Source: an uncultured Actinomycetes bacterium (lineage in GTDB: Bacteria; Actinomycetota; Actinomycetes; Nanopelagicales; Nanopelagicaceae). From it: a stretch of 64,000 bases of DNA. A program made the translations under genes and the position numbers. Positions 2,685-40,120 of the stretch are shown in pieces. The notes beneath the pieces were generated by a model. The model was not told the origin of the DNA and searched no databases. It worked only from the letters and a program-made list of their open reading frames with translations. The stretch is from positions 62,001 to 126,000 of the forward strand of contig CALEGP010000038.1 in assembly GCA_937876245.1 (NCBI GenBank). Reading direction: 5' to 3'. Numbering within the stretch: the first letter of the stretch is position 1; each line of letters starts with the position of its first letter.

Positions 2685-2804
2685 ATGATTTTGTATTCCG
2701 AGAATGTCCGCGAACTCTCAGCCCCACCAATATTTTTTGGCCTCTTTGCTTTTGGAGTTTTATCGCTTCTGCTTTTCTTGACGCTTCGTCTAGACCGGGA
2801 TTAA
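2685..2804 (+). CDS. small single-pass membrane protein upstream of nadD (39 aa)
   Basis: A 39-codon frame from ATG to TAA between ligA and nadD, too short for most ORF calls. It has a short polar N-terminus (MILYSENVRELSAPP) and one hydrophobic helix of about 20 residues (IFFGLFAFGVLSLLLFLTL), and it ends RLDRD. From memory, actinobacteria such as Streptomyces often carry a short protein of this shape, with a proline pair before a single membrane segment, directly upstream of nadD. That position supports a real gene of unknown function. A TAAAGT box 6 nt before the ATG fits the leaderless pattern seen elsewhere in the window. nadD starts at or within a few bases of its stop, so the two are probably translationally coupled. 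Confidence 0.6.
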   Translation: MILYSENVRELSAPPIFFGLFAFGVLSLLLFLTLRLDRD

Positions 2805-2808
2805 TCCC

Positions 2809-3378
2809 ATCTCGAAAGTAGGAATTCTTGGTGGAACTTTTGATCCACTACATCTGGGCCACCTTCACATAATTGAAGCTCTCGCTCAGCGATTCGATCA
2901 AATCATGTTGATTCCAGCTGGCGATCCCTATTTGCGAATCAGTAAGCCGGTTGCAACTCCAGGTGAGCGTCTAGAAATGTGCAGTAAAGCGCTACAAGAT
3001 TTGTCGGAAGAATTACAAGAAAAAGTTATGGTCTTGGATATCGAAACCTCGCGTAAAGGCGCAACATATACCTTCGATACTTTGCAATCTCTTCGGGCTT
3101 TTTTCCCGAAAGATGAATTCACTTTGATTATTGGCAGTGATGCCGCAGCAAGTTTCCCAAAGTGGAAGCGAGCCGAGGATGTAAAGAAGCAGGCTGAGAT
3201 ACTAGTAATTCGCCGGCCAGGAGAGAAGAAGTCAGAGTTCAAAGAAATAGAAATTGCTGCGCTAGATATTAGTGCATCTCAAATCCGTGAAGATTTTGCA
3301 AAGGGAAAAACTCCAGACACAATATCTCCTTCAGTGCTTAACTACATAAAAGATAGAGGCCTATATGGCAGCAGGTAA
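2809..3378 (+). CDS. nadD: nicotinate-nucleotide adenylyltransferase NadD (apparent non-AUG start)
   Basis: Transfers AMP from ATP to nicotinate mononucleotide in NAD synthesis. The nucleotidyltransferase motif GGTFDPLHLGH is encoded from 2827, the ISASQIR motif lies near the C-terminus, and the protein ends NYIKDRGLYG, all typical. The frame is closed by TAG at 2791-2793 and no ATG, GTG or TTG occurs before the essential motif. The first ATG, at 2905, would remove the nucleotide-binding loop. The only plausible starts are ATC at 2809, giving MSKVGILGGTFDP (189 aa, weak GGGA 8 nt upstream), or ATT at 2800, overlapping the upstream stop. ATC is chosen because homologues start a few residues before GILGGTFDP. 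rsfS overlaps the 3' end by 14 nt. Confidence 0.9.
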   Translation: MSKVGILGGTFDPLHLGHLHIIEALAQRFDQIMLIPAGDPYLRISKPVATPGERLEMCSKALQDLSEELQEKVMVLDIETSRKGATYTFDTLQSLRAFFPKDEFTLIIGSDAAASFPKWKRAEDVKKQAEILVIRRPGEKKSEFKEIEIAALDISASQIREDFAKGKTPDTISPSVLNYIKDRGLYGSR

Positions 3379-7119: not shown

Positions 7120-7773
7120 ATGTTTGATGAAATTCGCGAGGTTATCGCAGATAAGTATTTAAATTTTGGTTTTACCACCGAACAGCGCAACGCTGTTCTA
7201 ATTCTTTGCGCAGGGTTTCTCGCCGTAGGTGGAATCTTCTTCGTCTTGGCTCAGGGCTCTGGTGATGGACAAACACTTACTTCCTCAGAAATCTCAGCCC
7301 CACTGGTTCCGACTATTCCTGCAATCCCGGAGATAGTTGAGCTGCTAGTAGTTGATGTTTCTGGGCGCGTTAAGAATCCCGGGGTCTATTCGCTGGATAA
7401 GGGAGCGCGGGCCATTGACGCGATAAATCTCGCTGGGGGCGCGCAATCTGGCGTTGATTTAACAGATATAAATTTAGCGCATCTTTTATTTGACGGCGAA
7501 CAAATAATTGTTGGAACGCCAAAAGTTAGCTACTCAAGTAGTTCGAAAGCAAAAGTAGCGATCAAAGTTCCCACGGTCTCCTCGCCACTCAGTCTCAATT
7601 CCGCCACCTTGGCAGAACTTGATACCTTGCCAGGCATTGGTCCGGTCATGGCTAATCGAATACTTGCTTACCGCAAGAGCAATGGCCCATTTATAACGGT
7701 AGATGATCTCAAAAAAATAAGCGGAATTGGTGATGCCACATTCTCCGAAATTTCCAAGTTGGTCCGAATCTAA
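7120..7773 (+). CDS. comEA: ComEA family DNA-binding competence protein
   Basis: A membrane-anchored DNA receptor that binds incoming double-stranded DNA and hands it to ComEC. The 217-residue protein has a cytoplasmic N-terminus, one membrane segment at about 26-45 (VLILCAGFLAVGGIFFVLA), and a proline-rich linker. An SLBB domain follows (VDVSGRVKNPGVYSL... AINLAGGAQ), then two C-terminal helix-hairpin-helix motifs (LDTLPGIGPVMANRILAYR and LKKISGIGDATFSEI). It is directly followed by comEC, the usual pair. The start is supported by a -10 box 7 nt upstream. Confidence 0.93.
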   Translation: MFDEIREVIADKYLNFGFTTEQRNAVLILCAGFLAVGGIFFVLAQGSGDGQTLTSSEISAPLVPTIPAIPEIVELLVVDVSGRVKNPGVYSLDKGARAIDAINLAGGAQSGVDLTDINLAHLLFDGEQIIVGTPKVSYSSSSKAKVAIKVPTVSSPLSLNSATLAELDTLPGIGPVMANRILAYRKSNGPFITVDDLKKISGIGDATFSEISKLVRI

Positions 7774-7805
7774 GAACAGTTGACACCAGGTTACTGGCAC
7801 TTGGC

Positions 7806-10064
7806 TTGGCAATTTGGCTAGGCGCAGCTATCGCCGGGCTACTGACGGCTCCTTGGTCATATCTAACGATCCTTTTTGCAGTTGGATTAACTCGGATAAA
7901 GAAATCCCTCTCTCTGATCTTAATTGGAGCGCTATTAACCGGCGCTGGTGGCAGTGCGATACGTCAAATTGCGCTTACCCATAATTATCTGGCGGGCGCG
8001 CTGAAAAATTATCCGACAGTTGAGATAGTAGGAACTTTAAGAACCGATCCAGTGTGGACGAAACCAAAAGTCATCGGCTCAACATTTCGAAATAAGTCCA
8101 TGACGGCGCTGGCCTCAATTTCTAGTATTTCCATCGATGGAACTAAAAAGTATCTCAGGCTCCCGGTGCGAATCACTTCACCAAAATTTGTAGATCTAAT
8201 TCCTGGCCAGAAATTTACTGCGACGGGTACCGCTTTTCCTACGGCAGAACGTCGGGTGGCAGCACTGATCGCAGTTCAGGGCTCCTTTAATACGATCGGT
8301 GAGGCAAATATTTTGCAGCGGATATCGGCAAGAATCAGAGATGCTTTTCGCGCCTCTGCGCAATCAATAGGTGGGGCCAGTGGAGCGTTAATCCCGGGGC
8401 TAGTTATCGGTGATACCTCACTTGAGGAATTTACTTTCATCACTGATATGCGAAGAGCTGGGCTCTCACATTTAACAGCTGTAAGTGGTGCGAACTTCGC
8501 CATCATCGCAGCATTCTTATTGTGGTTATCGCAATGGATGTTTAGACGACTGCGGACGCGGTTAATTCTTACCAGCGCAGTATTAGTCGGCTTTATTTTT
8601 CTTGTGCGGCCATCGCCATCGGTGTTGCGGGCTAGCGTTATGAGCGCAGTTATATTGATTGCTCGCTCTAGGGGGGTGAAGGCGGATTCCATTCCATCTC
8701 TGGGTCTAGCCATATCACTACTAGTCTTGATTGACCCATTTCAAGGAATTGACCCGGGCTTTGCGCTTTCGGTTGCCGCAACTGCCGGAATCTTGCTGCT
8801 GGCGCCACTTATTCAAAGTTATCTTTCGAGCCGCTTTGGTCATGAAAAATTAGCGGAAGTTTTATCAATTCCACTATCTGCGACGGTCATGTGCACCCCA
8901 GTTATTCTTGCGATCTCGGGCTTGTTCTCGCTGGTCTCGATCCCAGCCAATGTCCTTGCAGAGCCTGTCGTAGCACCAATAACAATTATCGGATTTATCG
9001 CCGCGATATTTTCGCCAATTTTTCCCGAGATATCTCATCTGCTACTTATGCTGATAAAGCCTTTGGGTCAGATAATTGTTTGGATCTCCGATTTTGCATC
9101 AAGTATTCCTGTACTCATTCTTCCCAAAAGCTTTATAGGAGCTGGTATCGCCATATTGGTTATTTCCCTAATTCGATTTCGCAAGTGGTGGCTGATCGTG
9201 GCTTGCACCTCCTTGGTCTTCGTAATCTTGATCATTCCCGGGCGTTGGCCAGGTTCTTCTTGGGAAGTTGCTAACTGCAATGTCGGACAGGGAGATGGGA
9301 TGGTGATAAATCTAGGAAATCGTGAGGCCATAGTTATCGATACGGGGCCTGATTCAGATTTAATCGATAAATGTTTGCGTGATTTAGGAGTAAATAGAAT
9401 TGCATTACTTGTTCTCTCTCATTTTCACGCCGATCATACGCATGGTTTGGGGGGAGTCTTGGCAGGACGAGTGGTTAGGAGTATCTGGGTAACAAATTAC
9501 GGTGAAGCTAAAAGTGAACGAGATGCTGCATTTCTGCTATTTGGTCAGATTCCGCACTACGAAGTTACTGTGGGCGAGAGGCTCAATTTCCAAAGCGCGA
9601 AGGGACTGGTAGCGATAAGAGTTTTGTGGCCCACAAAAGGTGCTCAAAAATTTGCTGCGATGCCAGGTGATGGTTCAAGTATCAATAATTCGAGCATTGC
9701 CTTGGAGATCAGCGTCGGTAGTTTGCGAATTTTCAGCGCTGGGGATTTAGAACCGCCCGGACAGGAGGCGATGATGGCACAATCTAAAATCGAAGCAGTG
9801 GATATCTATAAAGTTTCGCATCACGGGTCTTCATATCAATATTTGCCATTAATAGCTGCGCTCAAGCCCAAAGTCGCTGTAATTAGCGTTGGAATTGGAA
9901 ATAGCTATGGCCATCCAGCGAGCTCGACAATATCTGCACTTGAATCAGTAGGCGCAAAAGTCATGCGCACCGATTTAGATGGGGCTGTTGCTATCGACGA
10001 TACGCTTGACTCACTTAAGATTAGAACCAAACAGAATGATTGGTGGAATATAAGGTGGGGATAA
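7806..10064 (+). CDS. comEC: ComEC/Rec2 DNA-uptake channel with metallo-beta-lactamase domain
   Basis: The inner-membrane channel for single-stranded DNA in natural transformation. At about 752 residues it has N-terminal membrane segments, a soluble DUF4131-like region, the competence domain (SGALIPGLVIGDTS, AVSGANFAIIAAF, RASVMSAVILIARS) with many helices, and a C-terminal metallo-beta-lactamase domain with HFHADHTHG near residue 538. All three domains are present, so the protein looks intact. The start is uncertain: TTG at 7806 lacks a ribosome site. The frame is open back to 7734 and reads VDTRLLALGLAIWLG, which resembles the N-terminus of homologues but has no standard start codon before the TTG. 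Probably cotranscribed with comEA. Confidence 0.92.
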   Translation: MAIWLGAAIAGLLTAPWSYLTILFAVGLTRIKKSLSLILIGALLTGAGGSAIRQIALTHNYLAGALKNYPTVEIVGTLRTDPVWTKPKVIGSTFRNKSMTALASISSISIDGTKKYLRLPVRITSPKFVDLIPGQKFTATGTAFPTAERRVAALIAVQGSFNTIGEANILQRISARIRDAFRASAQSIGGASGALIPGLVIGDTSLEEFTFITDMRRAGLSHLTAVSGANFAIIAAFLLWLSQWMFRRLRTRLILTSAVLVGFIFLVRPSPSVLRASVMSAVILIARSRGVKADSIPSLGLAISLLVLIDPFQGIDPGFALSVAATAGILLLAPLIQSYLSSRFGHEKLAEVLSIPLSATVMCTPVILAISGLFSLVSIPANVLAEPVVAPITIIGFIAAIFSPIFPEISHLLLMLIKPLGQIIVWISDFASSIPVLILPKSFIGAGIAILVISLIRFRKWWLIVACTSLVFVILIIPGRWPGSSWEVANCNVGQGDGMVINLGNREAIVIDTGPDSDLIDKCLRDLGVNRIALLVLSHFHADHTHGLGGVLAGRVVRSIWVTNYGEAKSERDAAFLLFGQIPHYEVTVGERLNFQSAKGLVAIRVLWPTKGAQKFAAMPGDGSSINNSSIALEISVGSLRIFSAGDLEPPGQEAMMAQSKIEAVDIYKVSHHGSSYQYLPLIAALKPKVAVISVGIGNSYGHPASSTISALESVGAKVMRTDLDGAVAIDDTLDSLKIRTKQNDWWNIRWG

Positions 10065-37044: not shown

Positions 37045-37620
37045 GTGAGAATTATCGCAGGAAGCAGCAAAGGCAAAGTTCTATTTTCGCCAACCGAGAA
37101 AACCAGACCAACATCCGACCGCGCCCGCGAAGGACTTTTCTCCTCACTTGAATCTGAATTTGGTTCAATGAGCGAATTAAATTTTCTCGATCTTTTTTCT
37201 GGTTCAGGAGCGGTGGGAGTTGAGGCTCTCTCAAGAGGAGCAGCTAATGTCTACTCGATTGAAGACCATCCGCCGACGGCAGCCATAGCAACAAAGAATT
37301 TTGAACTAGTTACGCAAACTTCCGGCAAATTCAGCGTCATAACATCTCCGGTTGAACGCTTTGTAAGTACGCCACATCAATTGGAATTCGATATTATTTT
37401 CCTTGACCCACCATATGAAGCTGCAAATCTCACCATAGAAAATTTATTGGTGGATATCCATTCGAGCCATTTATTGAAGCGCAGTGGAATTGTGGCGATC
37501 GAACGCGGGTCTAAGAAGACACCATTCACATGGCCAGAGCCCTTTGTGGGAGAGAAAGTCCGTTCATATGGGCAGGGAAGTATCTTCTATGGCGGCTATT
37601 CTGCTAGCGTCTTGCCGTGA
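37045..37620 (+). CDS. rsmD: 16S rRNA m2G966 methyltransferase RsmD
   Basis: Methylates G966 of 16S rRNA. The 191-residue Rossmann methyltransferase starts at GTG (MRIIAGSSKGKVL), with FLDLFSGSGAVGVEALSRGA and the catalytic DPPY in FLDPPYEAANL. It lies 17 nt after recG and overlaps coaD by 4 nt (GTGA), the standard recG-rsmD-coaD order. Confidence 0.94.
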   Translation: MRIIAGSSKGKVLFSPTEKTRPTSDRAREGLFSSLESEFGSMSELNFLDLFSGSGAVGVEALSRGAANVYSIEDHPPTAAIATKNFELVTQTSGKFSVITSPVERFVSTPHQLEFDIIFLDPPYEAANLTIENLLVDIHSSHLLKRSGIVAIERGSKKTPFTWPEPFVGEKVRSYGQGSIFYGGYSASVLP

Positions 37621-38096
37621 AACGCGTCGTATGTCCCGGATCCTTTGATCCCATAACTTTCGGACACCTAGACATTATCGAGCGCGCAAGTTCGATTTTT
37701 GACGAAGTCGTCATCGCAGTAATGGTTAATCAAACCAAAAAGACTCTTTTTACTGTGGCAGAAAGAATTGAAATGACCAAAGAGGTGACGGCCCGATATC
37801 CAAATGTAAAGGTCGATTCTTGGTCAGGACTCTTAGTTGACTATTGTAAGAGAAACGAGATCGCGATCATCGTTAAAGGACTGCGAGCAGTTACGGACTT
37901 TGATTATGAATTGCAAATGTCACAAATAAATTTGCAACTCCAGGGAGTTGAAACTCTCTTCATTTCAACGGCTCCCGCCCACTCCTTTTTGTCTTCATCA
38001 CTTGTTAAAGAAATTGCTAGTCATGGTGGCGATGTTTCAAGTTACATCCCTGCAGTACTTTTAGAGCGATTGAAAGATCGCCTGGCTGGAAAATAG
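37617..38096 (+). CDS. coaD: phosphopantetheine adenylyltransferase CoaD
   Basis: The fourth step of coenzyme A synthesis. The 159-residue protein begins MKRVVCPGSFDPITFGHLDII, with the TxxH-like nucleotide motif TFGH, KGLRAVTDFDYELQM and the C-terminal SSSLVKEIASHGGDVSSYIP. The GTG start overlaps the rsmD stop. Confidence 0.96.
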   Translation: MKRVVCPGSFDPITFGHLDIIERASSIFDEVVIAVMVNQTKKTLFTVAERIEMTKEVTARYPNVKVDSWSGLLVDYCKRNEIAIIVKGLRAVTDFDYELQMSQINLQLQGVETLFISTAPAHSFLSSSLVKEIASHGGDVSSYIPAVLLERLKDRLAGK

Positions 38097-39264: not shown

Positions 39265-39438
39265 GTGCCAGTACCAAAGCGAAAGATGTCTCGCTCCCGC
39301 ACTCGTCATCGTCGTAGCTCATGGAAGACAACACCTGCGGCAATTGCGAGTTGCTCACAGTGTCAACAGCCAAAGCTTCAACATACAGCTTGCCCAACGT
39401 GCGGTACTTACAATTCCCGCCAAGTAGTAGAGGTTTGA
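39265..39438 (+). CDS. rpmF: 50S ribosomal protein L32
   Basis: A 57-residue L32 (MPVPKRKMSRSRTRHRRSSWKTT) with a four-cysteine zinc ribbon (CSQCQQP and CPTCG). GTG at 39265 is chosen because AAGGGG lies 8 nt upstream; GTG at 39256 falls within that site. It is followed by rnc in the DUF177-rpmF-rnc order. Confidence 0.94.
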   Translation: MPVPKRKMSRSRTRHRRSSWKTTPAAIASCSQCQQPKLQHTACPTCGTYNSRQVVEV

Positions 39439-39439
39439 T

Positions 39440-40120
39440 CTGTACGATCGTTTAATCGCGTCACTTGGAACTTCGGTTTCAAGTGAATTGCTAGTACTTG
39501 CATTAACCCATCGCTCTTATGCTTATGAGTTTGGTGGCTTGCCAACAAATGAACGCCTTGAATTTTTAGGCGATAGCGTTCTTGGTCTAGTCGTTACCGA
39601 GGAGTTATATACAAAATTTCCGGATCTTGATGAATCAAAACTCTCACCCCTTCGCTCAGGGGTTGTCAATATGCGAGCACTTGCGCAAATTGCACGCGAG
39701 TTAAATCTCGGTGAGTATTTACGAATTGGAAAAGGCGAAGAGAGAACGGGCGGGCGTGATAAAAATTCAATTTTGGCGGATTCACTTGAGGCGCTTATTG
39801 GTGCTATTTATCTTGACTTGGGTTTCAAAAAGACCCAAGAAATAATTCTCAAGTGGTTAAGGCCAGCAATTGAATCTGCAAATGCCCAAGGTTTCGGTCT
39901 GGATGCAAAGACAGCACTCCAGGAATTATGCGCAGCGCAAGCTTTGAGCACTCCTGAATATGAGATCGCTGAATCCGGACCAGATCATGATAAAAGTTTT
40001 ACTGCAGTTGTAGTTATATCGAGTGAGAAATTTGAAGCTGGCGAAGGAAAATCAAAAAGAGAAGCCGAGCAGGCCGCGGCAAAATTGGCTTATGACAAAA
40101 TAGATGCCAGAACTACCTGA
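39440..40120 (+). CDS. rnc: ribonuclease III (apparent non-AUG start)
   Basis: Cleaves double-stranded RNA in rRNA and mRNA processing. The RNase III domain has ALTHRSYAYEFGGLPTNERLEFLGDSVLG and DSLEALIGAIYLD; the C-terminal dsRNA-binding domain has AKTALQELC and KREAEQAAAKLAY. The frame opens at 39431 after a TAG and reads LYDRLIASLGTSVSSELLVLALTHRSY, a normal RNase III N-terminus, but has no ATG, GTG or TTG before TTG at 39488. CTG at 39440 has AGAGG 6 nt upstream and gives 226 residues. ATC at 39455 has TACGAT 6 nt upstream, fitting the leaderless pattern. mutM overlaps the 3' end by 17 nt. Confidence 0.92.
   Translation: MYDRLIASLGTSVSSELLVLALTHRSYAYEFGGLPTNERLEFLGDSVLGLVVTEELYTKFPDLDESKLSPLRSGVVNMRALAQIARELNLGEYLRIGKGEERTGGRDKNSILADSLEALIGAIYLDLGFKKTQEIILKWLRPAIESANAQGFGLDAKTALQELCAAQALSTPEYEIAESGPDHDKSFTAVVVISSEKFEAGEGKSKREAEQAAAKLAYDKIDARTT

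Follow-up and report, generated by a model that had tools for sequence, protein, structure and literature searches.

A conserved near-cognate ATC codon as the inferred start of nadD, beside the stop of a small upstream ORF

The nadD locus and its reading frame

The stretch of DNA analysed here, 64,000 nucleotides from an uncultured actinobacterium and hereafter called the window, carries near its beginning a small ORF followed directly by nadD (Table 1). NadD is an enzyme of NAD synthesis and is generally essential in bacteria. The assignment of the gene is supported on two counts, a score of 128.4 bits against the family model TIGR00482 (cut-off 112.45) and the presence of the GGTFDPxHxGH signature, which begins at 2830 and not, as the earlier note had it, at 2827. 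Only one other match to nadD was found in the source genome, a weak one at C38:99629 that falls within the gene at window 37608-38096, taken for coaD, and nadD therefore looks like a single-copy gene.

Table 1. Features of the nadD start region, in window coordinates
Feature	Position	Strand	Basis
Small ORF of 39 aa with one predicted membrane helix and C-terminal LRLDRD; stop TAA 2802-2804	2685..2804	+	conserved before nadD
In-frame stop TAG, upstream bound of the nadD reading frame	2791..2793	+	sequence
ATT, rejected candidate for the nadD start	2800..2802	+	ACT/AGT in L013, L015, L021, L023; missing in L027, L123
ATC, predicted start of nadD, 4 nt past the small ORF stop	2809..2811	+	ATC/ATT in 33/33 aligned g1/g7/g8 genes
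nadD, nicotinate-nucleotide adenylyltransferase, 189 aa from ATC	2809..3378	+	TIGR00482 and PDB NadD matches from residue 1
GGTFDPLHLGH catalytic motif	2830..2862	+	translation

Read in the nadD frame, positions 2791-2829 are TAG ACC GGG ATT AAT CCC ATC TCG AAA GTA GGA ATT CTT, after which the sequence continues with GGT GGA ACT TTT GAT CCA. It had been claimed from this sequence that ATG, GTG and TTG are all absent between the stop codon and the motif, and this is borne out; the list of codons given with the claim, from ACC to GTA, is correct as far as it goes but ends before GGA ATT CTT. The first in-frame ATG lies at 2905, downstream of the catalytic motif. Gene finders restricted to ATG, GTG and TTG would hence either begin NadD at this ATG, deprived of its catalytic motif, or miss the gene.

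The small ORF precedes nadD directly in nearly all sampled genera of the family, and no match to its 39-residue product was found in Pfam or NCBIfam. Its frame relative to nadD is 0, -1 or -2 depending on the genome, and in some genomes the two share a frame with a TAA between them. In the window the nadD start lies 4 nt past the small ORF stop. The corresponding distance ranges from -1 to +15 nt in most other genomes with a near-cognate start and is about +20 nt in one ambiguous case (L017), such that a start within a few nucleotides of an upstream stop, the spacing of a coupled gene pair, is conserved.

Choice and conservation of the start codon

Relatives were drawn from two collections and the DNA upstream of nadD was read, a usable canonical start being defined as an ATG, GTG or TTG at least 5 codons before the motif in an open frame. 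No such start exists in 67 of the 96 sampled family genomes, closed ones included. By genus, the canonical start is lacking in 18/19 genomes of g1 (the genus of the window), 14/17 of g2, 3/3 of g7, 27/27 of g8, 3/3 of g10 and 2/2 of g13, and some nadD frames open 42-55 codons upstream still contain no ATG, GTG or TTG. Almost all genomes of g1, g7 and g8 carry ATC at the start position; the ATT variant occurs in two g1 genomes. The frames of g2, g10 and g13 likewise hold no canonical start, with an ATT (or ATC) sitting directly at the small ORF stop; a TTG or GTG is available in 3 of the 17 g2 genomes. Other genera use TTG (g3, g5, g11, g16 and g17), GTG (g9), ATG or TTG (g4) or ATG (g6), and in g12 and g14, represented by one genome each, the choice between TTG and an Ile codon is ambiguous. 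Outside the family, every sampled genome of the class has an ATG, GTG or TTG available. One relative, a metagenome-assembled genome whose record is titled Bifidobacterium breve (L042), has a nadD locus 87% identical to that of the window and is probably mislabelled.

About 4 changes are needed to place the near-cognate state on a 26-genome LeuS tree (bootstrap range 3-4; shuffled mean 7.0). The state forms one large block (g1, g7, g8, and g2 except for a TTG branch) with g10 and g13 standing separately; the tree gives the number of changes and no direction of gain or loss.

The alignment of nadD starts in relatives, proposed in the earlier note, thus reveals a conserved near-cognate start, and it also indicates which codon is used. 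Across 33 full genes of g1, g7 and g8 the start column holds 31 ATC and 2 ATT. No conserved internal Ile column of the same alignment exceeds 16 ATC of 33, and Ile codons as a whole number 212 ATT, 206 ATC and 76 ATA; the start codon is therefore conserved beyond ordinary codon conservation. In one of the 33 genes (L017) the script picked a start too far upstream, and its true start is likely ATC as well. The codon after ATC encodes Ser or Ala with a free third base (TCT, TCA, TCC, TCG, GCA), a coding-like pattern, while the amino acid encoded before it varies freely (CCC, CTC, GCC, CAG, ACC, ACA). Stops lie 1-3 codons upstream in L027, L123, L020 and L022, leaving ATC as the only conserved near-cognate codon. 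The protein tells a consistent story: NadD read from ATC, MSKVGILGGTFDP, matches the N-termini of solved NadD structures residue for residue, with residue 1 aligning to residue 1 of 2qtm.

It had been proposed that nadD starts at either ATC or ATT. The near-cognate part of this proposal holds, and the persistence of ATC in relatives, where the ATT at 2800 is replaced or absent, leads us to infer ATC 2809-2811 as the start in the window. Initiation at ATT 2800 or at ATT 2824 is very improbable, although both codons do read ATT in the window. The former is ACT or AGT in four relatives, and in two more a stop removes it from the open frame (TAA GCC ATC TCC AAG in L027 and TAG CTC ATC GCA CAT in L123), on which grounds it is rejected; the latter varies among ATT, ATA, ATC and CTT, and a start there would cut into the first beta strand. 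From the ATC, the predicted N-terminal peptide is (M)SKVGILGGTFDPLHLGHLHIIEALAQR. That the locus reflects a sequencing or assembly error, or a decaying gene, carries a vanishingly small probability. The relatives are mostly metagenome assemblies; however, the same state recurs in dozens of independent assemblies as well as in closed genomes, the frame is intact with its motif conserved, and no second nadD is seen in the source genome. The single-contig genomes G027, G043, G054 and G035 share the near-cognate state, which argues against assembly error in particular. The earlier note had judged a real start likelier than decay, and this breadth of conservation backs that judgement, while the sequencing error that it had named as a possible refutation is contradicted by the relatives.

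Further, the state of nadD is unusual on its contig. Among 157 conserved genes scanned along about 212 kb of it, nadD and rnc alone clearly have no canonical start, so that start codons have not been relaxed in general; the idea that the family as a whole has moved to odd start codons finds no support in this one-contig scan. The rnc gene (RNase III, 39431-40120) lies directly after rpmF and has no ATG, GTG or TTG before its conserved region. It appears to start at the CTG at 39440-39442, which is preceded by GAGG 6 nt upstream and is conserved before rnc in g1, g7, g8 and g2, with TTG in one genome. In a comEC-like gene (7734-10064), no canonical start precedes a TTG at codon 24 of the open frame, and the gene may begin either there or at a near-cognate codon.

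Putative coupling to the upstream ORF

How a ribosome would select an ATC with so weak a leader is suggested by the position of the codon. We consider it likely that nadD is translated from ATC 2809-2811 by re-initiation coupled to the small ORF: ribosomes terminating on the membrane ORF at TAA 2802-2804 would re-initiate 4 nt downstream at ATC, giving (f)MSKVGILGGTFDP..., with coupling taking the place of a strong Shine-Dalgarno sequence and a canonical start. It is the spacing, together with the lack of a strong Shine-Dalgarno sequence, that points to such coupling. For nadD in the window the predicted anti-Shine-Dalgarno pairing, to which bases outside the core contribute, is -5.1 kcal/mol; infC reaches -11.6, and the medians are -3.6 for 38 canonical genes and -3.0 for random positions. 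Since many canonical genes here are also weakly paired, the weak Shine-Dalgarno of nadD is not special in itself. The initiator tRNA shows a normal stem. An intact anti-Shine-Dalgarno is present in G027, G043 and G035 but was not found in the assemblies G000 and G058, where the 16S itself may be missing.

Ordinary de novo initiation at the same ATC, independent of the small ORF and comparable to that of infC, is a less favoured alternative, and we regard it as unlikely. A GGGA does lie 8 nt before ATC in the window and an AAGGA 6 nt before ATT in g10 and g13, and de novo starts led by strong Shine-Dalgarno sequences are exemplified by infC and the Staphylococcus aureus cases discussed below. 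Yet the window and several g8 genomes show weak pairing (-2.5 in L023), and nearly all genomes of the near-cognate kind keep the nadD start next to the small ORF stop. Given that the small ORF directly adjoins nadD and is conserved there, one could imagine frameshifting or stop readthrough joining the two products into a fusion protein. This is barely credible, because all three relative frames occur, and with the stop and its sequence context also varying, no single recoding event fits; the fusion was rejected on this account.

Coupled re-initiation at ATC, if it operates, would be expected to hold NadD at a low level and to make it IF3-sensitive. The sensitivity is probable by analogy with Escherichia coli, where an excess of IF3 reduces initiation at non-canonical codons and also, when no Shine-Dalgarno sequence is present, re-initiation (PMC2268962). 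A bolder and distinctly tentative proposal is that nadD constitutes a second IF3-sensed gene of the family alongside infC, with NAD synthesis set by ATC/ATT re-initiation after a small membrane protein. Were this so, NAD supply would be tied to the state of the translation machinery.

Relation to known near-cognate starts

To our knowledge, conserved AUU, AUC or AUA starts are known for few bacterial genes, and nadD would add to these an enzyme of NAD synthesis across several genera. No account of a rare nadD start turned up in literature searches, which is weak evidence given that most subscription papers lay outside their reach. Moreover, relatives with ATC, ATT, TTG, GTG or ATG near the same site constitute a natural series on start-codon change.

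AUU, AUC and AUA are rare non-canonical bacterial starts against which IF3 discriminates (PMC4611024). In E. coli, infC and pcnB have AUU starts, the latter gene being described as nonessential (PMC9410913), and the S. aureus starts are AUA for infC and, as shown by ribosome profiling, AUU for cvfC1 and AUA for ccpN, with non-canonical sites reaching about 10% of the AUG reporter level in minimal medium (PMC13009471). Judged from its sequence, nadD joins these genes (infC, pcnB, cvfC1 and ccpN) and differs from them in having no strong Shine-Dalgarno and in being located at an upstream stop.

The parallel with infC, drawn in the earlier note, is apt. In the source genome infC begins ATC AGC (L161, G000:C26), a precedent for ATC initiation in the same cell, and these two codons also open infC in almost every relative sampled from the class (L092-L121); both nadD and infC are important and carry a conserved Ile-type start (AUU/AUC/AUA). 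The two differ in that infC, with its strong Shine-Dalgarno, codes for the very factor that does the sensing, whereas nadD is a metabolic gene with a weak leader, positioned next to an upstream stop. Like pcnB of E. coli, nadD is a gene other than infC with an AUU-type start, though a different gene from pcnB, which is described as nonessential (PMC9410913). It shares with cvfC1 and ccpN a near-cognate start conserved among relatives, but those genes have extended Shine-Dalgarno sequences and the support of ribosome profiling (PMC13009471), while the nadD start is predicted from sequence. Finally, the E. coli re-initiation system (PMC2268962) resembles nadD in placing a start with a weak Shine-Dalgarno next to an upstream stop; its reporter used AUG, whereas the putative coupling of nadD would operate at ATC or ATT.
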